The notes under the pieces: generated by a model
Databases searched by the model: none
What the model was told of the DNA's origin: nothing
The model's input: the letters and a program-made list of their open reading frames with translations, nothing else
Position numbers and translations under genes: made by a program
NCBI GenBank assembly: GCA_903875465.1
Contig: CAIQWB010000076.1
Span: forward strand, 1 to 56,231
Source of the DNA: an uncultured Verrucomicrobia subdivision 3 bacterium
GTDB lineage: Bacteria; Verrucomicrobiota; Verrucomicrobiia; Limisphaerales; UBA11358
Direction: 5' to 3'
Length of the DNA stretch: 56,231 nucleotides
Shown here: positions 920-11,907 of the stretch, piece after piece
Position numbering within the stretch: position 1 is the stretch's first letter
How the letters are laid out: each line of letters opens with the position of its first letter

Positions 920-3655
920 TTGTTTTCGCATTTGCAAAAAGAGCTTAATCAAGTGAACGTATCAAAAGAAGTAATTAAAAATTTTACGGATCGCGGCCTG
1001 GCCGCCTCCGGCAACTCCACTAGCGACAAATGGTCTGAGTCGCTCCAATCGGTGTTTGAACTGGCGCTGCAAAACGCCGGGCCGGAACGCACCTCCCAAT
1101 TACTGGAACAACTGACGGAACAACTGCGCAGTGCGCCGCGGACCAGCCCGGGCGTGACCACGCCGTATGTGAATACCATTTCGGCGGCCAATCAGGCACC
1201 GTTTCCGGGCAATCGCGATATTGAACGCCGGATCAAAAGCCTCATCCGCTGGAATGCCATGGCGATGGTGGTGAAGGCTAACTCGACCACGAACGTGGGC
1301 GGTCATATTTCCTCCTTTGCCTCCTCGGCCACCTTGTACGAAGTGGCGTTCAACCACTTTTTCCGCGGGGCCACGGATGATTTTCCGGGTGACATGGTTT
1401 ATTTTCAGGGCCATGCCGCCCCGGGGATGTACGCCCGCGCCTTCTTGGAAGGTCGCATTAGTGAGCAACAGTTGCAGAATTTCCGCCAGGAGCTCGCGGA
1501 TGGCGGCGGGTTGTCCTCTTATCCGCATCCCTATTTGATGCCGGAATTCTGGCAGTTCCCCACGGTGTCCATGGGTTTGGGCCCGATCATGTCGCTGTAT
1601 CAGGCGCGGTTTAACCGTTATCTGCACGCGCGTGGCCTGACCAAATGGAAGACGGAACCCAAGGTCTGGGCATTCCTCGGTGACGGCGAGTCGGACGAGC
1701 CGGAATCCCTCGGGGCCATCACGCTGGCCGGTCGCGAAAACCTGGACAATGTGGTCTGGGTAGTGAATTGCAATTTGCAGCGGCTCGACGGTCCGGTGCG
1801 GGGCAACGGCAAGATCATTCAGGAGCTCGAAGGTCTCTTCCGCGGCGCGGGCTGGAATGTCATCAAGGTTATCTGGGGCACGGCTTGGGATGAATTGATT
1901 CGGCGCGACAAGACCGGGTTGTTGATCAAGCGCATGGATGAATGCGTGGATGGCGACTACCAAAAATATGTCGTGGAGCCGGGCAGCTACACCCGCAAGC
2001 ATTTCTTCGGCAAATATCCGGAATTGCTTGAGTTGGTCAATCACCTGACCGACGAGCAAATCAACAAACTTCTGCGGGGTGGCCACGATGCGCGCAAAAT
2101 GTATGCCGCGTACAAATCCGCCACCGAGCACAAGGGCCAGCCCACGGTCATTCTGGCGAAGACCATCAAGGGCTATGGCCTGGGCGAGGCCGGGGAGGGC
2201 AAGAACATTTCCCACCAGCAGAAGAAGATGAATGAGAAGGAGCTGCGCGAATTCCGCAAGCGCTTCGACATTCCCATCAGCGACGACATTATCGCGGAAA
2301 CGCCGTTTTACCGTCCGCCGGCGGACAGTCCGGAGATCAAATATCTCCTCGAACAGCGGGCCAAGCTCGGCGGCTTTTTGCCGGCGCGCATCGTCAAGCC
2401 AGTCACGCTGGACGTGCCCAAGGCGGATTATTTCGGGGAATTTTACCGGGGTTCAGCCCGTGAAATTTCCACCACCATGGCCTTTGGCCGGTTGCTGAGT
2501 ATTTTGTTGCAGCACAAAGGCATTTCCCAAAACATTGTGCCCATCATACCGGATGAGGCGCGCACGTTTGGGCTGGACACCTTGTTCCGTGAAATCGGCA
2601 TTTATTCGCCCAAGGGCCAGTTGTACGAGCCCGTGGATCTGAACACCCTTTCGTTTTATCACGAGGCAAAGGACGGCCAGATCTTGGAAGAGGGCATCAC
2701 GGAGGCGGGTTCCATGGCCTCGTTTATCGCCGCCGGCACCAGCTACGCCACGCATCGCGTGCCCACGATTCCGTTCTACATTTATTATTCCATGTTTGGT
2801 CCGCAGCGGGTGGGTGACCTGTTCTGGCTGGCCGGGGATATTCGCGCCAAGGGCTTTTTGCTGGGCGCCACCTCGGGCCGCACCACGCTCAATGGCGAGG
2901 GGCTCCAACACCAAGACGGTCACAGTCTGCTGCTCGCCGGCACTGTGCCCACGTGTCTGCCTTATGATCCTGCGTTTGGCTATGAGCTCGCTGTGATCGT
3001 GGCGGAAGGCCTGCGCCGCATGTACGTCGCCAAGGAGGAAATTTTCTACTATATCGCGCTCTATAACGAGAACTACCTGATGCCGTTGATGCCTCCGGGC
3101 GTGGAAGAGGGTATTTTGAAGGGGCTCTACAAATTCAAGGCAGGCGCGGAAGGCCTGAAGGTCAAGGCCAACCTGATCGGCAGCGGTGCCATCATGACCT
3201 CGGCCCTGAAAGCCCAGACCATCCTGGCGGACCGCTACGGCGTCTCCGCGGATATTTGGAGTGCCACCAGCTACAAGTTGCTGCGTAACGAGGCCATCCA
3301 GACGCAAACGTGGAACATGTTGCATCCCACCGAGGCCCCGAAAAAATCTTATTTGGAAACCTTGCTGGCGAAGGAAACGGCTCCGTTTATCGCCGTCTCC
3401 GACAACGTCCGGACCATCCCCGACCAAATTGGACCCTGGGTGCCAGGCGGCTTGTTCACCTTGGGCACCGATGGCTTCGGCCGCAGCGACACCCGCACCC
3501 GGCTGCGCCGGTTCTTCGGGGTGGACGCGGAATCCACCGTGATTGGCGTGCTCTACGCGCTGGCGGAAAAAGGCGCCATCCAGCGGACGGTGGTGGCCCA
3601 AGCCATCAAAGACCTGGGCGTGGATCCGAACAAAATCCAGCCGCAGCTCGTCTAG
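920..3655 (+). CDS. aceE: Pyruvate dehydrogenase E1, homodimeric type
   Basis: This 911-aa protein aligns through its whole length with the E. coli-type single-chain E1 (887 aa), the thiamine-diphosphate enzyme that decarboxylates pyruvate and acetylates the lipoyl arm of E2. The thiamine motif is visible as FLGDGESDEPES followed about 27 residues later by NCN. Other family signatures are YFQGHAAPGMYARAFLEG, ARTFGLDTLFREIGIYSP and TSGRTTLNGEGLQHQDGHS. The listed start is TTG at 920. A GTG at 953, preceded by AAAGAG, would give an N-terminus closer to the family. E2 and E3 genes are not in the window. The gene ends 28 bases before a strong terminator and so is probably monocistronic. Confidence 0.96.
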   Translation: MFSHLQKELNQVNVSKEVIKNFTDRGLAASGNSTSDKWSESLQSVFELALQNAGPERTSQLLEQLTEQLRSAPRTSPGVTTPYVNTISAANQAPFPGNRDIERRIKSLIRWNAMAMVVKANSTTNVGGHISSFASSATLYEVAFNHFFRGATDDFPGDMVYFQGHAAPGMYARAFLEGRISEQQLQNFRQELADGGGLSSYPHPYLMPEFWQFPTVSMGLGPIMSLYQARFNRYLHARGLTKWKTEPKVWAFLGDGESDEPESLGAITLAGRENLDNVVWVVNCNLQRLDGPVRGNGKIIQELEGLFRGAGWNVIKVIWGTAWDELIRRDKTGLLIKRMDECVDGDYQKYVVEPGSYTRKHFFGKYPELLELVNHLTDEQINKLLRGGHDARKMYAAYKSATEHKGQPTVILAKTIKGYGLGEAGEGKNISHQQKKMNEKELREFRKRFDIPISDDIIAETPFYRPPADSPEIKYLLEQRAKLGGFLPARIVKPVTLDVPKADYFGEFYRGSAREISTTMAFGRLLSILLQHKGISQNIVPIIPDEARTFGLDTLFREIGIYSPKGQLYEPVDLNTLSFYHEAKDGQILEEGITEAGSMASFIAAGTSYATHRVPTIPFYIYYSMFGPQRVGDLFWLAGDIRAKGFLLGATSGRTTLNGEGLQHQDGHSLLLAGTVPTCLPYDPAFGYELAVIVAEGLRRMYVAKEEIFYYIALYNENYLMPLMPPGVEEGILKGLYKFKAGAEGLKVKANLIGSGAIMTSALKAQTILADRYGVSADIWSATSYKLLRNEAIQTQTWNMLHPTEAPKKSYLETLLAKETAPFIAVSDNVRTIPDQIGPWVPGGLFTLGTDGFGRSDTRTRLRRFFGVDAESTVIGVLYALAEKGAIQRTVVAQAIKDLGVDPNKIQPQLV

Positions 3656-3716: not shown

Positions 3717-3969
3717 TTGGGAAATTTTCATTCGCCGCCGGCCGCGAGGTTATTGGGTGCCACCATCAGTTAGAAAGGTTTGGCCGATTCTGTTTACCGG
3801 GTCTGCAAGGTGATTTGCGGTCAGAGCCGCAAGGTCCGGCTGGGTGTGTCACGCAAACATCCAAGGCGCAAACCCGATTATTGCCAGGGCAGGGAGCATG
3901 GCTACGTTTGCGGTTTCTGTTGGCGTGCGGGGCGAAATGGCTTAAATTAGGCGGGTAATTCGCATCAAA

Positions 3970-4512
3970 ATGAAAAAAAACATCGTTTTGGGGGTGACGG
4001 GCTCCATTGCCGCTCATAAGGCAGCGGATCTGGCGAGTCTCCTGACCAAACAAGGCCGGGCGGTGCGGGTGGTCATGACGGCGGATGCCCAGCGGTTCAT
4101 CACCCCTTTGCCGTTTAAAACTTTGTCCCGGCACCCGGTGGTCACGGAGCTTTACGATGAGGAGGAGGGCTGGCAGCCCACCCACATTAAACTGGCGGAT
4201 GAGGCGGACCTGTTGCTGATCGCCCCGGCCACGGCCCAGGTCATAGCCCGGCTGGCGCATGGGTTGGCGGATGATGCGCTGACGTGCATTGCGCTGGCGT
4301 TGAATCCCCTGGCCAAATTGTTGATTGCCCCGGCGATGAACGGGAAAATGTGGCAGCACCCCGCCACCCAGGCCAATGTGGCCACCTTGAAAGGCCGGGG
4401 GGCGGAATTCATCGGTCCGGACGAAGGGCTCCTATCCTGCGGCTATGAGGGGGTTGGCCGGCTGTGGCCGGTGGAAAAGATTGCCGCGCGCGCGGTGGAA
4501 CTCCTGGGGTAA
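3970..4512 (+). CDS. coaC: Phosphopantothenoylcysteine decarboxylase (stand-alone CoaC)
   Basis: The 180-aa protein is the FMN-dependent HFCD flavoprotein domain that converts 4'-phosphopantothenoylcysteine to 4'-phosphopantetheine in coenzyme A synthesis. Seen directly: N-terminal GVTGSIAAHKAADL for flavin binding, the THIKLA region with the likely catalytic His near residue 75, the PAMNGKMW substrate clamp and the flap motif LLSCGYEGVGR with its conserved Cys. Most bacteria carry this as the N-terminal half of a CoaBC fusion. Here the protein stops at the end of the decarboxylase domain, so CoaB must lie elsewhere. AGGCGGG lies upstream of the ATG. It is 8 bases before the sensor kinase gene, so the two are probably co-transcribed. 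Confidence 0.88.
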   Translation: MKKNIVLGVTGSIAAHKAADLASLLTKQGRAVRVVMTADAQRFITPLPFKTLSRHPVVTELYDEEEGWQPTHIKLADEADLLLIAPATAQVIARLAHGLADDALTCIALALNPLAKLLIAPAMNGKMWQHPATQANVATLKGRGAEFIGPDEGLLSCGYEGVGRLWPVEKIAARAVELLG

Positions 4513-4520
4513 GTTGATTT

Positions 4521-5930
4521 GTGGCCACTGAATTTTTCACCCGGGCCCAGGCCAACTGGTTAAAACGGCTGCCGACGCTGTTTGAAATTCCCGTGCCCGA
4601 CCCGGCGCGGTTGCGGCAGCGCATCGGGATGATGGAGGGTAATATGATCCTGCCGGTCAAGGCGGTATTTATCGCCATGATCGCCTACTCCTTCAATTAC
4701 CAGCAGCACTGGGTGGGGGAAATTATCAGCACCCTGGATGTGACCGTGGAGGAGATCCAGTATATTTTTTGGTTCTATATCCTGGCCAGTGTGGTGCTGG
4801 CGGTGGTGGTACTGGTTTCCCGAGTCCTGCCGCTGGCACTGGTCCAATGGACAGTGGTTACGAGCAGCATGGTCGACGGGCTGTTTATCGCCGGCATGGC
4901 CTTGCTGACCGGCGGGTTGGACAGTCTTTTGTTCTGGTTGTTTGTGGGCTTGATTGTGCGGAATTCGGTGAGCGTGCCGCCGGGATTCTCCCAGTTGTTT
5001 TTGAATTTTTTCATCAGCCTTTGCTATGTATTGGTGGCGATTTTGGATGTTTCGGTGATTGGCGGTCTGGATGACACCACCCGGCGGGCCTTTGATTTGA
5101 CCCCGCATGAGGAACTCGGGGAACCGTTTTTCCTGCGTTTGATCGTGTTGTGGCTGACGGCGTTGTGCGGGTATGGCTACCAGGCATTTCTGGAACGGCA
5201 GCGACTGGCGGCGGAGGAGGCTGCGGAATTTTCGGCCCGGGAGGGGCAACTACATTCGGCGGGGCGGCTGGCGGCGGAATTTGCGCACCAAATCAAGAAC
5301 CCCCTGGCGGTGATCAATAATGCGGCTTTTTCCCTGCAACGTTCGGCGCGGGAAGGGCGGGCAGCGGCGCCGGAACTGGTGTCGATCATCCAGGAGGAAG
5401 TGGCGCGGGCGGACCGGGTGATCACTCAAGTGATGGGGTATGCGCAATTGAGCGAGGGGCGGGTGGAAAAGCTGGAGGTGCTGGCCGAGTTGGAGCGGGC
5501 GCTGGAGCAGGTGTTTCCCGCCGCTGTCCCCACGGGAATAACAGTGCGGCGTGAGTTTGGCCGCAATTTCCCGCCATTGCTCATGCAGCGCAACCATTTG
5601 AACGAAGCATTGGTAAATCTGCTGCAAAATGCCCGGGAAGCCCTGGATGATTCAGGTGCGGTCGTCTTCACAGCCGAATGTGACCGGGAATTCACGGTGA
5701 CGATCTCGGTGGCGGACACCGGACCGGGCATTCCGCCGGAATTGATGGAGCGCATTTTTGAGGCCTATTTCACCACCCGGGAAAAGGGCACGGGACTGGG
5801 CCTGGCGATTGTGAAGCATAATGTGGAACTCTATGGCGGCCGGGTATTGGTTGAATCCGTGCTTGGACACGGAGCGAAATTTACGTTAATCTTTCCAGCA
5901 AAAACCTGGATGCAAACGAAAGCCAAATGA
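4521..5930 (+). CDS. Membrane sensor histidine kinase of an NtrC-type pair
   Basis: The 469-aa protein starts at GTG. Roughly residues 50-225 hold about five or six hydrophobic segments, with no large extracytoplasmic domain. Then follows a HisKA domain with the phosphorylated His near residue 256 (AAEFAHQIKNPLAVI) and a HATPase domain with the N box NEALVNLLQNAREAL, G1 box DTGPGIP and G2 box GTGLGLAI. Membrane-embedded sensors of this shape often read a lipid or membrane state; that is inference. The stop overlaps the start of the next gene by 4 bases (ATGA), so the pair is translationally coupled to the sigma-54 regulator at 5927. The GTG start is supported by its position right after coaC. 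Confidence 0.9.
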   Translation: MATEFFTRAQANWLKRLPTLFEIPVPDPARLRQRIGMMEGNMILPVKAVFIAMIAYSFNYQQHWVGEIISTLDVTVEEIQYIFWFYILASVVLAVVVLVSRVLPLALVQWTVVTSSMVDGLFIAGMALLTGGLDSLLFWLFVGLIVRNSVSVPPGFSQLFLNFFISLCYVLVAILDVSVIGGLDDTTRRAFDLTPHEELGEPFFLRLIVLWLTALCGYGYQAFLERQRLAAEEAAEFSAREGQLHSAGRLAAEFAHQIKNPLAVINNAAFSLQRSAREGRAAAPELVSIIQEEVARADRVITQVMGYAQLSEGRVEKLEVLAELERALEQVFPAAVPTGITVRREFGRNFPPLLMQRNHLNEALVNLLQNAREALDDSGAVVFTAECDREFTVTISVADTGPGIPPELMERIFEAYFTTREKGTGLGLAIVKHNVELYGGRVLVESVLGHGAKFTLIFPAKTWMQTKAK

Positions 5931-9306: not shown

Positions 9307-9753
9307 ATGACCAAAATACTAATCATTCTTTTCATCGCCTTTTCCTTTGAGGCAATTGGTGTTATCACCTTGAAAACGGGCATCAATCAGATTGCGGCCC
9401 GCTTCGATGCACGCGCCGCGACCACGCCCCGGTGGAAGAACACCTTGAAGCTGGTGGGGGACTGGTTCACCACGCGGTCGGTGCTGCTGGGACTGCTGCT
9501 GGAAACCATTTTTTTCATGCTGCTCCAATATTTGCTCGCGCAGCAGGATGTCAGTTTCATCTGGCCGCTCACCTCGCTGAGCTTTGTGATGACCACGCTG
9601 GCGGCGCAGTTTATTCTGAAGGAAAACGTGGATGCGCTGCGTTGGGGCGGAGTGGCGCTGATCATGCTTGGGGCGGCGCTGATCAGTTTTGGGGAGCATG
9701 CCAAGGAGAAGACGGCGCCGGCGCCAGTCACCGCCCCAGCAGCGGTCAAATGA
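9307..9753 (+). CDS. Small EamA/SMR-like membrane transporter
   Basis: The 148-aa protein has four hydrophobic segments and resembles half-size drug/metabolite transporters such as EmrE-like proteins and aminoarabinose-lipid flippase subunits. Seen: MTKILIILFIAFSFEAIGVITLKTG at the N-terminus, then SVLLGLLLETIFFMLLQYLL, VSFIWPLTSLSFVMTTLAA and LRWGGVALIMLGAALISFG, ending in an Ala/Pro-rich tail. The conserved charged residues are the Glu in FEAIG and the Lys in LKTG. Starting 1 base after the HpnK-type gene, it is a candidate flippase for the hopanoid or its glycolipid (inference). Its stop codon lies inside the left copy of the duplicated nucleosidase gene end. Confidence 0.75.
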   Translation: MTKILIILFIAFSFEAIGVITLKTGINQIAARFDARAATTPRWKNTLKLVGDWFTTRSVLLGLLLETIFFMLLQYLLAQQDVSFIWPLTSLSFVMTTLAAQFILKENVDALRWGGVALIMLGAALISFGEHAKEKTAPAPVTAPAAVK

Positions 9754-9772
9754 CTTGGACCAGCACCGCCGC
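9746..9772 (-). repeat. Displaced 3' end of the nucleosidase gene (left flank of insert)
   Basis: Read on the minus strand, these 27 bases match the last 27 bases of the nucleosidase gene at 11287-11313 with 23 identities, including the stop codon in the same frame. Translated, it gives AAVLVQVI-stop against AAVLVQAM-stop at the intact gene. The 11-base core TGGACCAGCAC is identical. The match ends sharply on the insert side. The reading is that this was the original end of the nucleosidase gene, overlapping the transporter gene tail to tail, before the Mrr-ORF6N insert moved it. Confidence 0.6.
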
Positions 9773-9784
9773 CTCTGCAGAATA

Positions 9785-10654
9785 TCAACGAAACTGGTCA
9801 AAGAAGGCATGATCAATCTCAAACACCTGCTTTTGCCGCACCCCGAGTTCTTTGCCTTGAAAAAGCTCAACTAGGCGCTCCCCATCAACCAATTCAATTG
9901 GCAAAACGCCCTCTCGATCAGCTTCCTTTTGTGCGTCGGAACTGAAAGTGCCTGTAGTGAGAAAAATCCCCTTGTCAGCACGTCCCATTGTGGCATTACG
10001 AAAGTCACCGACTTGTGCGCGGCTGACACTTCCACGAATCCGCTTACATTGAAACATTACTTTCAAGCCAACGAATGGATTGAGCCGCAATACACCACGC
10101 CCATCGATGCCCCCATCGTGGCTTTGGCCAAGCACAACCAATCGTTCCAAGCCATATTCGTGGAGTAGCCTTTTACACAGACGTTCAAAACCATCGGGTG
10201 GCAATGAGAGTAATACGTCAATCAATTCTTGTTCTTCGGCTTCCTCTGGGGCTTCGGTATCGTCTGTTGGTTCTGCGGCTTTCGGTGATATGGCAGCGGC
10301 TTTCTTTTGGCGGGCCTCGGCAAATATGGCAACCCACTTCAGAAAAATGGCGCGGCTTGCCTCCTCGTCGAGGTGGGTCTTGGCTCCCTTGGCAGTAATC
10401 GTCCATATGCCACGTTTTGTCGAATCAAGGAGTCCTTCCCATATGAGGTATTGCCGAGCCCATTGGACCTGATTGTGGAAACGTTCATTGCCGGACTTCA
10501 TTTTTGCCTCTACTACTTCCGATGGCAGCTTGAATTTTTCCGCAATCCAATCTGAGCATTCATGTGGGGATGCCTTGCCTCCTATAGAGCGCAAAGCATC
10601 CAGTAATGGTCCCATCCAGCGAATAAACTCAGCTCGTTTCGCTTTTTTTGCCAT
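9785..10654 (-). CDS. mrr: Mrr-family restriction endonuclease
   Basis: The 289-aa protein begins with an Mrr N-terminal winged-helix domain (about residues 5-100, AEFIRWMGPLLDALRSIGG to GIWTITAKGAKTHL), then an acidic linker, then the Mrr catalytic domain. The nuclease signature is present as GFERLCKRLLHEYG, the Asp in SHDGGIDGRG and the QxK motif in MFQCKRIRG. Family members are type IV enzymes that cut methylated DNA. The ATG at 10654 is chosen because AGAAGGA precedes it at the right distance; a TTG at 10681 would overlap the gene before it. It follows the ORF6N gene by 23 bases. Base composition is visibly richer in A+T than its neighbours, suggesting acquisition. Confidence 0.9.
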   Translation of the reverse strand: MAKKAKRAEFIRWMGPLLDALRSIGGKASPHECSDWIAEKFKLPSEVVEAKMKSGNERFHNQVQWARQYLIWEGLLDSTKRGIWTITAKGAKTHLDEEASRAIFLKWVAIFAEARQKKAAAISPKAAEPTDDTEAPEEAEEQELIDVLLSLPPDGFERLCKRLLHEYGLERLVVLGQSHDGGIDGRGVLRLNPFVGLKVMFQCKRIRGSVSRAQVGDFRNATMGRADKGIFLTTGTFSSDAQKEADREGVLPIELVDGERLVELFQGKELGVRQKQVFEIDHAFFDQFR

Positions 10655-10677
10655 AATGTCCTTCTGGGGTTGGGTCG

Positions 10678-11223
10678 TCAACGCTTGCGGGCGTTGGGTT
10701 TGGCGGCTTCAGGCTTCCCTCGAAAGCCGATTTCACGTTTCGGCTCTTCAGGCGGGGCCATTAGCTCCCGGATGGCGTCAAAGACATCCCTGAACTGAGC
10801 ATCGTATTTTTGTTCCAAGGCTTCCAGTTTGTGTGATAATTCGGCGTTGGAAGACAGCATCTCCCGCAAACGTACGAATGCCCGCATTATTTCGATATTC
10901 ACGTTAACCGCCCGCTCACTATTGAGCACACTGGAAAGCATGGCAATTCCCGGTTCCGTAAAAGCGTAAGGAGGCGTTCGGCCACCACCCCAACTTGAAA
11001 TCACGAATTGTGATTTCAAGTTTAGCCATTCCATGGTGGTGAGCTGAAACATGAAGTCGCTGGGGAACCGATTGAGATTTCGTTTAACCGCTTGAATCAA
11101 AGCACGAGGCTCCACTTGATAGAGATGTGCCAGTTCGAAGCTCAAGATTACTTTGTGACTGCGAACAAACAGGATGGATCGTTCGAGTCGCTCCAATGCA
11201 ACTAATGAACGGGATTCAATCAT
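10678..11223 (-). CDS. ORF6N-domain DNA-binding protein
   Basis: The 181-aa protein carries an ORF6N domain, a DNA-binding module known from phage antirepressors and many mobile islands. Seen: SHKVILSFELAHLYQVEPRA, LIQAVKRNLNRFPSDFMFQL and, after it, SSWGGGRTPPYAFTEPGIAM, the standard family core. Residues 110-150 form a likely coiled coil (SSNAELSHKLEALEQKYDAQ), and the tail is basic (KPNARKR). ATG 11223 is preferred over an upstream TTG at 11259, because family N-termini look like the shorter form. It precedes mrr in the same direction. Pairing with a nuclease suggests a regulator or target-recognition partner for Mrr; that role is inferred. Confidence 0.88.
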   Translation of the reverse strand: MIESRSLVALERLERSILFVRSHKVILSFELAHLYQVEPRALIQAVKRNLNRFPSDFMFQLTTMEWLNLKSQFVISSWGGGRTPPYAFTEPGIAMLSSVLNSERAVNVNIEIMRAFVRLREMLSSNAELSHKLEALEQKYDAQFRDVFDAIRELMAPPEEPKREIGFRGKPEAAKPNARKR

Positions 11224-11230
11224 GCTGCTG

Positions 11231-11259
11231 TTTTTAGCAGCGGTAATCGCAAATGGCAA
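11231..11259 (-). promoter_or_regulatory. Possible promoter of the ORF6N-mrr pair
   Basis: On the minus strand TTGCCA and TAAAAA stand 17 bases apart, giving 5/6 and 4/6 matches to the -35 and -10 consensus. Transcription would begin almost at ATG 11223, so the message could be leaderless. A 6-bp hairpin (GCTGCT/AGCAGC, 11224-11241) sits at the same spot. Weak evidence. Confidence 0.3.
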
Positions 11260-11286
11260 TTGATTTTCATGGATCGTTACTCTTCA

Positions 11287-11313
11287 TCACATGGCCTGGA
11301 CCAGCACTGCCGC
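11287..11313 (-). repeat. Intact 3' end of the nucleosidase gene (right flank of insert)
   Basis: These are the last 27 bases of the nucleosidase gene, the partner of the displaced copy at 9746-9772 (23 of 27 identical, same direction). Together they bracket the Mrr-ORF6N insert in the way attachment-site duplications bracket elements integrated at a gene's 3' end. No integrase is visible inside. Confidence 0.55.
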
Positions 11314-11907
11314 CAGCTTCGCCGCGGCCAACTGACAGCGCTTTTGCAAGTGCAGCAAGCCGCCAATTTTCCAAGGGGCTTTGGCGATGGTCCAGCCCAG
11401 TTTGCCGAAATCCAGGGTCATGTCCGGACGGTACAGTTGGTTGAAATCCAGGGGCAAATCCTCGCTGGCGGTGTCGGAGATGACGCGCACAGTGGCGCAG
11501 GGCAGCGACATTTCCCGGCAGACCGCTTGGATGGCGGCGGATTCCATTTCCACAACATCGGCTCCGGTGGTTTTGCGCAGTTCCGATTTTTCCGCCACGG
11601 TCACGGCCACTCGGTCGGTGCAGAGGATTCGGGCGGGGGTGGCCCCGGCGGCGGTGAGGCGGGCGGCCAGGTCCGCATCGGAAGTTTCAAAGACGACGGA
11701 CCCGGCGGTCAGTTTTGGCTCCAGTCCGCCGGCAAAGCCGCAGGTGAAAATCAACTCAACCGGCTGGCTGGCAAGAAACTGGCGCACAGCGGTTTCGGCG
11801 TTTTTACGGCCCATGCCGGTCACCAGAGTGGCGACTCCGGGGTGCGTGCCGGCCAGTTTGCGAAAGGCGGGGGCTTCTTCCTTGACGGCAAAACAAACGA
11901 GCTTCAT
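11287..11907 (-). CDS. Nucleoside phosphorylase-family hydrolase (HpnG- or MTAN-like)
   Basis: The 206-aa protein belongs to the purine nucleoside phosphorylase/uridine phosphorylase fold. Seen: the N-terminal strand MKLVCFAVKEEAPAF, the glycine-rich FTCGFAGGLEP, and the substrate motif VVEMESAAIQAVC, with the Met-Glu pair that binds ribose. MTA/SAH nucleosidase is one reading. The tail SDTASEDLPLDF, then YRPDMTLDFGKL and a Leu-rich end resembles HpnG, the enzyme that removes adenine from adenosylhopane. If the Mrr insert is removed, this gene sits tail to tail with the hpnD-hpnK-transporter run, which favours HpnG. The start overlaps the exonuclease stop by 4 bases. Confidence 0.7.
   Translation of the reverse strand: MKLVCFAVKEEAPAFRKLAGTHPGVATLVTGMGRKNAETAVRQFLASQPVELIFTCGFAGGLEPKLTAGSVVFETSDADLAARLTAAGATPARILCTDRVAVTVAEKSELRKTTGADVVEMESAAIQAVCREMSLPCATVRVISDTASEDLPLDFNQLYRPDMTLDFGKLGWTIAKAPWKIGGLLHLQKRCQLAAAKLAAVLVQAM

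Follow-up and report, generated by a model that had tools for sequence, protein, structure and literature searches.

An mrr and ORF6N insert at a nucleosidase gene end in an uncultured Verrucomicrobia bacterium, and the palindrome carried inside ORF6N genes

In contig CAIQWB010000076.1 of an uncultured Verrucomicrobia subdivision 3 bacterium (assembly GCA_903875465.1), an mrr gene and an ORF6N gene stand between a nucleosidase gene and a transporter gene, and the last bases of the nucleosidase gene recur on the far side of the pair. This arrangement, found in a stretch of 56,231 nucleotides that was analysed as a whole (hereafter the window), raises the question of how the two genes came to stand behind the end of a third, and of what an ORF6N gene could do there. 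Comparison with relatives shows, at the level of sequence, that a piece of DNA of about 1.5 kb carrying mrr and ORF6N was inserted at the nucleosidase 3′ end and displaced the end of the gene. Comparison among ORF6N genes likewise shows a palindrome, here called the tag, at a fixed coding place, kept by compensatory change in most members examined, whose bases covary with residues 40, 44, 82 and 83 (and 41 and 45) of the encoded protein. The best explanation of the whole, an insertion with a displaced gene end together with an ORF6N protein that would recognise the palindrome inside its own gene, is in our view probably correct. A prior reading made from the letters of this DNA (the sequence-only reading) had overlooked both this palindrome within the ORF6N gene and its relation to the predicted recognition residues.

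Insertion at the nucleosidase 3′ end

The insertion is read from the following features.

9307–9753, plus strand: EamA-type transporter gene, the left flank, its 3′ end overlapping the displaced nucleosidase end (Pfam EamA, 29.7 bits)
9746–9773, minus strand: displaced original nucleosidase 3′ end (AAVLVQVI and stop), a 24/28 repeat of 11287–11314 that resembles the gene end at the empty site of the relative G012
9785–10681, minus strand: mrr gene (type IV-like restriction endonuclease), likely start ATG at 10652–10654 (Pfam Mrr_cat 89.9 and Mrr_N 74.9 bits)
10678–11223, minus strand: ORF6N gene, ATG at 11221–11223 (Pfam ORF6N, PF10543, 97.8 bits)
11287–11314, minus strand: replacement 3′ end now on the nucleosidase gene (AAVLVQAM and stop), from the repeat and empty-site comparisons
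11287–11907, minus strand: nucleosidase gene (PNP_UDP_1, Pfam 67.8 bits), the insertion target

The two copies of the direct repeat (9746–9773 and 11287–11314) are identical at 24 of 28 bases and lie 1,541 bases apart, and each ends with an in-frame minus-strand stop. The best score for the 28-mer was at most 19/28 in 500 simulated regions of 1.68 kb, and elsewhere in the window it reached 18/28 on the plus strand and 19/28 on the minus strand. The sequence-only reading had described a 27-base nucleosidase end recurring with 23 identities and with in-frame stops (AAVLVQVI against AAVLVQAM); it was right on both counts, the stops being seen in the translation and the match extending to 24/28. 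The position of the crossover within the 28-bp repeat cannot be placed. The insert had also been called richer in A+T, and its G+C content is indeed 48–52% (500-bp windows starting at 9750–10750) against mostly 55–63% around it. The identities given to the mrr, ORF6N, nucleosidase and transporter genes are backed by Pfam.

The empty site that had been proposed as a check is present in the nearest relative, G012 (nucleosidase 75% and transporter 87% identical), where the nucleosidase and transporter genes are arranged tail to tail, their stops overlapping and the matches separated by 4 nt, exactly the arrangement that removal of the insert had been expected to give. The single nucleosidase end of G012, which reads RVI and stop (GTCATTTAA), is like the far copy of the window (GTCATTTGA) and unlike the copy now on the gene (GCCATGTGA), so that the far copy is the old gene end and the near copy the one brought in by the insert. 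The claim of integration at the nucleosidase 3′ end, with the old end left behind and a new one supplied by the insert, is thus upheld by the empty site and by the comparison of tails. A convergent nucleosidase/transporter pair on one contig, with 4–253 nt between the matches, occurs in 31 of 58 relatives, against 1,539 nt in the window; in the remaining 27 one of the two genes is absent, gives a weak match or stands on a different contig. G020, which is among the 31, possesses a further pair with 1,189 nt between its members; another gene is lodged there (L019, contig C341, the intervening gene at about 155–1343) and no tail copy was found, which indicates that other DNA can enter the gap between transporter and nucleosidase. 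No gene-tail copy in the gap was found at any of 10 loci (9 genomes) checked for repeats; in G005 a 28-bp repeat of an inner gene segment directly follows the gene match.

Between the repeats, mrr and ORF6N are the only family matches, and no integrase was found (serine recombinases were not searched for), in agreement with the earlier description of an insert without integrase. Genome G000 holds eight tyrosine recombinase matches, all on other contigs. A look-alike gene end arrived with the insert while the old end stayed beside the transporter; we infer that incoming DNA with a homologous gene tail was joined at that tail, either through ordinary recombination or with the help of an integrase encoded elsewhere and acting in trans.

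The footprint is not confined to the window. Of 103 ORF6N loci, 17 are enclosed by direct repeats within 1.7 kb, compared with 30 of 721 control positions. The window repeat is too short for the threshold of this count, so that the window is not among the 17, and repeat-rich loci (e.g. L136, L225, L231) enter both the 17 and the control positions. Like footprints at gene 3′ ends surround several other ORF6N genes (gene names assigned by Pfam): tails of carB1 in G068 (129 bp, 96%), G010 (130 bp, 82%), G066 (65 bp, 88%) and G023 (31 bp, 87%), of ribD in L164 (151 bp, 95%) and of mfd in L167 (55 bp, 89%). In two further cases it is the start region of the next gene that is duplicated (L237, 36 bp; L253, 34 bp). 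In L223 a duplicated pheS tail (4454–4527 and 4798–4871; 74 bp, 89%) encloses a small open reading frame (ORF) without Pfam match and an ORF6N-type palindrome, apparently the relic of an ORF6N gene.

A different origin of the repeat, and in our judgement an unlikely one, would be a transposase target-site duplication that diverged by drift, with no imported gene tail. It draws on the differences between copies, of which two of the four in the window and 7/9 in the L223 pheS copies fall in changed codons. The carB1 copies of G010 speak otherwise, with 19 differences in synonymous codons against 5 in changed codons; mostly synonymous differences are what a tail derived from some other functional gene should show, and they suggest that both copies evolved as functional gene ends. 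Unlike a transposon with its target-site duplication, moreover, these brackets have diverged copies and no fixed length (28–151 bp in the gene-end cases), and no transposase was found in the insert by ORF list and Pfam.

The suggestion that Mrr and ORF6N form a dedicated minimal mobile defence unit found no support. With the window Mrr as tblastn query against L112–L319, whose flanks extend a few kb and often end at contig ends, the window sequence alone was matched, and no Mrr gene stands at any other ORF6N locus fetched; a conserved Mrr–ORF6N unit is rejected on this ground. An Mrr homologue and a PIN-domain gene stand between or beside carB1 ends without ORF6N.

A palindrome in the coding sequence of ORF6N genes

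The ORF6N gene of the window holds a perfect inverted repeat of 13 nt. Residue numbers below are counted from the ATG.

10992–11022, no strand: intragenic palindrome (the tag), two perfect 13-nt arms, first codon that of N68; an inverted repeat at the same place in most ORF6N genes examined
11089–11106, minus strand: codons of ORF6N residues 40–45 (putative recognition helix), of which 40, 41, 44 and 45 covary with the tag
10975–10986, minus strand: codons of ORF6N residues 80–83 (predicted loop or wing after the tag), of which 82 and 83 covary with the tag

For comparison, 109 other ORF6N loci (80 plus 29, one gene in both) were collected by peptide patterns or protein similarity and not by the palindrome. 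The same codons hold a palindrome in most of them, in a family that spans many phyla, and 102 of the 109 have at least 9/11 pairs and a near CAANTTG core. When the centre is fixed, 97 of 110 rows (one gene entering twice, as L062 and L112) have at least 10/13 complementary pairs, and 12 shifted centres give 0–2 rows. In 95 genes a mean of 12.25 of the 13 pairs is complementary; when their peptides are recoded with the codon use of each gene itself, the mean is 4.99. From this test 14 of the 109 genes, with the best palindrome off the consensus centre, were left out, a choice that does not enter the fixed-centre count. Both the recoded peptides and the shifted centres reject coding constraint alone as the cause, and the palindrome is conserved beyond coding needs, as looked for in an autoregulator. 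The arms change together, mainly at positions 4, 5, 7, 8, 10 and 13, and their mismatches (28 A.C, 17 G.T) have no excess of G.T, which suggests that the palindrome is read as DNA rather than RNA.

The tag is also confined in the genome. In that of the window the site occurs once at three or fewer mismatches. A degenerate pattern found 61 places in 21 genomes of the genus and, read backwards, 6; at 46 of the 61 there are at least 7/9 pairs, and 41 of these 46 lie in or just upstream of ORF6N genes and two at ORF6N-like relics in G066. Some ORF6N genes (L229, L231, L237, L155) have two in-frame palindromes of different types a few tens of bases apart.

What sets the tag apart is its relation to the protein. 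In 99 genes (10 of the 109 with a tag score below 8 were left out), tag position 4 follows residue 44: A goes with Q in 57/59 genes, G with E in 12/13, and C with K or R in 21/24 of the two main C groups, three genes of rarer groups not being tabulated. Position 7 pairs with residue 40 (G with K), position 8 with residue 83 (G with Y) and position 10 with residue 82 (G with R, A with K), and residues 41 and 45 covary with the tag as well. Glutamine with adenine, arginine or lysine with guanine (opposite C) and glutamate with cytosine (opposite G) are familiar contacts between proteins and DNA. Path-disjoint contrasts on a quick tree, built without the code columns and used with all its branches, went in the same direction in 19.4 of 22 cases for position 4 and in 19.0 of 23, 16.3 of 19 and 17.0 of 19 in the others, with none opposite; the best of 77 control columns, located in the same helix, reached 10.2 net and the next 5.4.

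The association persists where the peptide is silent (the Fisher tests used here ignore relatedness). The codon of Ser71 is TCA with Q44 in 56/58 genes and TCG with E44 in 12/13 (Fisher P 1.6e-11). Leu69 is written TTG with R82 in 69/70, and TTA or CTA with K82 in 16/17; Lys70 is AAA with R or G40 in 18/20 and AAG with K40 in 10/12; Arg70 is AGG with K40 in 44/46 and AGA with R or G40 in 13/14. That residues follow bases without effect on the peptide argues for the DNA itself being read.

The position-4 rule was then applied to further sets, in which only ORFs with a tag score of at least 8 and no gap at the residue entered the count. A set of 51 loci (30 from other genera of the phylum, seven plasmids of Bacteroides, Parabacteroides, Sulfuricurvum, Haliovirga and Butyrivibrio, one fecal phage and 13 loci of the genus) had the expected base in 36 of 38 ORFs; L231 is one exception, and its second tag fits. 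In a third set, drawn from three many-copy genomes, 9 of 13 fitted. Non-repeated further genes combined gave 42/47 (L245, L300, L307 and L313 removed as repeats; 45/51 with them). Single ORFs with two ORF6N domains were seen in genome G200 (L308, L309, L312).

Putative action of the ORF6N protein

From the tag and its code we infer that the ORF6N protein may be a self-addressed, autoregulating DNA-binding protein. It very likely binds its own tag as a dimer, and each gene would then carry the operator of its product: the stretch coding for the DNA-reading loop would be the palindrome that the protein reads, and specificity and address would travel and change together. Feedback control by binding inside the own gene is somewhat favoured over its absence; the bound protein might stop or reduce transcription of its gene, as a roadblock or by a loop to upstream sites, a step of which we are less sure. 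Such feedback would persist at any landing site, among them a place just past a host gene that is read through, and an operator independent of the promoter would fit a gene that often sits behind the ends of others. An incoming gene with the same tag would become repressible through its own coding sequence, from which a change of promoter would be no escape; exclusion of incoming genes in this way is a possibility to which we give rather less than even weight. Upstream arrays of other members' tags could place many ORF6N genes under other family members. That the family forms a self-addressed gene network, serving identity and exclusion among small mobile or defence cargo genes, is proposed just as tentatively. 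The PDC-S05 and anti-repressor labels of the family would fit a regulator of mobile or defence cargo.

The arrays bear on the last steps. Further palindromes, 58 in number, were found at 31 of the 109 loci; 42 of them lie no more than 700 nt upstream of the tag, near or ahead of the start, and two genes carry six upstream palindromes each, at similar distances. Among 40 upstream sites in 14 genes of the genus, 29 half-sites coincide exactly with the internal tag of a different ORF6N gene and 36 depart from such a tag by no more than one change, against 0.1% identical and 0.5% within one change for shuffled half-sites; four match their own gene's tag exactly. This comparison covers the tags of 35 genes, 14 arrays and incomplete genomes. 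A match of upstream sites to co-resident members was considered and rejected, 7/40 being within one change against 12.1 in label shuffles (0.45% of shuffles below 7).

In an AlphaFold2 model from 62 sequences (mean pLDDT 75.5, pTM 0.62) the protein contains a helix-turn-helix, on whose second helix (residues 39–48, model numbering 38–47) residues 40, 41, 44 and 45 are predicted to lie; most tag-coded residues and residues 80–83 are placed in a low-confidence loop before a strand at 85–88. The best matches by VIA-align 2 were Ski-like and Dachshund DNA-binding fragments (Z 7.1 and 6.4) and, at Z 4.8, RacA. None of these is taken as a close structural relative, and the weak likeness may mean a common arrangement only.

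Several results weigh against the self-recognition reading and its extensions. Foldseek against the PDB gave no match at E of 0.001 or below. Three of the 46 near-palindromic places in the genus are at no known ORF6N gene. With well-supported branches only, position 4 retains five contrasts (4.2 in the same direction, 0.1 opposite), a number that does not suffice for significance. Of the plasmid and phage loci, L292, L294, L295 and L299 reach a tag score of 8, while L293, L296 and L298 score 7 and L297 scores 5; the four misses in the third set are two of a TTGC type with a residue set of its own and two in ORFs with two ORF6N domains. The window ORF6N gene has no upstream site, so that looping cannot be general. 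Tags of co-resident paralogues are alike in 4/32 pairs against 8.0 by chance (P 0.06), a trend only, and significant distinctness among the paralogues of one genome is not borne out.

In a competing account the palindrome would serve the recombination or mobility of ORF6N elements, the ORF6N protein would be an accessory DNA-binding factor, and regulation would be secondary. The excess of repeats bracketing ORF6N genes over control positions lends it some weight, as do genomes with up to 10 ORF6N matches and the genes with two in-frame palindromes. We regard it as improbable, given that the palindrome is not at the insert boundary in the window or in other bracketed loci, that no recombinase domain was found in the ORF6N protein by Pfam, NCBIfam or PHROG, and that like brackets also enclose cargo without ORF6N. 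Much less probable is a third account, in which another protein reads the palindrome and the covariation reflects recognition-helix residues touching tag-coded residues within the ORF6N protein: tag-coded residues 71 and 74 do covary with residue 44, and yet the association persists in the synonymous codons given above. An RNA hairpin in the ORF6N mRNA (an attenuator, or a site for RNase or protein, with residue covariation indirect) is the least probable of all, since, although the arms would make a long transcript stem in every gene that has them, G.T mismatches are not in excess, recognition-helix residues track the tag bases, and the same palindromes stand in arrays upstream of the start.

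Related systems and other gene ends

The proposed self-recognition by the ORF6N protein can be set beside what is known of its family. By profile the window protein is a member of ORF6N (97.8 bits against a curated cut-off of 27.8 for PF10543), of the phage anti-repressors (its PHROG label) and of PDC-S05 (PADLOC models at E 1.1e-50, 4.3e-48 and 3.6e-31); the Mrr protein has Mrr_cat and Mrr_N over their cut-offs and matches PADLOC mREase_IV (1.3e-24) and also PDC-S02. NCBIfam gave no match for either protein, a PDB sequence search with the ORF6N protein none, and a PDB search with the ORF6N profile weak rows of unrelated molecules (best E 0.028). PDC-S05 is among candidate defence systems, most PDCs being not yet validated (PMC12988326), and has 3,275 loci in rumen genomes (PMC13356809); ORF6N is counted among domain-swapping Bro-type proteins (PMC10111431); in phage ICP1, Rha or Bro-N genes adjoin CRISPR or nuclease genes (PMC8263062). 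No intragenic palindrome or binding code for the ORF6N family was found in the literature searched, which excluded subscription papers and preprints.

Escherichia coli PurR is a repressor with an operator inside its own gene, and the putative autoregulation of ORF6N through a site in its coding region would be analogous. Unlike the PurR type, the ORF6N site is at one fixed place throughout a family from many phyla, within codons of the predicted DNA-binding domain, and changes with the recognition residues, and in many genes it is joined by arrays of sites of other members, placed upstream. The insertion has a parallel in integrative elements that rebuild the 3′ end of the gene they target: the end is duplicated as a direct repeat, the old end displaced and the gene left intact. 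Integrase-bearing islands differ in that the window insert has no integrase and similar brackets hold cargo as small as one gene. With Mrr and other type IV restriction enzymes the window protein shares its two Mrr domains; the pairing of its gene with ORF6N recurred at no other locus among L112–L319.

ORF6N genes are common, often multicopy, candidate defence genes without proven function, for which the data offer a directly testable mode of action and a readable protein–DNA code (residues 40, 44, 82 and 83 against tag positions 7, 4, 10 and 8) with many natural variants of specificity, each accompanied by the target it reads. Should the exclusion idea be true, it would explain how related small cargo genes coexist and why the operator is kept in their own codons. 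The insertion footprint shows that a cargo of one or two genes is able to establish itself at gene ends with no integrase of its own, and the carB1 gene of this genus is a suitable place to study the process.

The carB1 3′ end looks like an insertion hot spot of the genus, judging from the DNA found there: what stands between or beside its ends includes ORF6N, a PIN-domain gene together with a small partner (L358), an Mrr_cat gene (L363) and, in L357, a series of other genes. Partial copies of the carB1 end were seen in about a dozen of 49 genus genomes, some at contig ends and sometimes several in series, with varied small cargo (L251, L242, L224, L234, L350–L364). Next to the Mrr_cat gene of L363 (G015, contig C155) is a gene that matches an IS200-like transposase below threshold (19.7 bits, the cut-off being 23).

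Other junctions were observed as well. At 3331–4034 of L237, in reverse orientation, an ORF6N gene is inserted where a large gene begins (about 1,470 open codons), and the 36 bp of duplicated start are read into the ORF6N frame. The end of a small ORF upstream of ORF6N in L157 (IGFKKAVEALNEKMEKK; 3954–4009 and 4487–4542) reappears as the ORF6N C-terminus, as if taken over in frame. On the Bacteroides and Parabacteroides plasmids (L292, L293) an annotated site-specific integrase stands immediately upstream of ORF6N, with ArdA antirestriction genes nearby.

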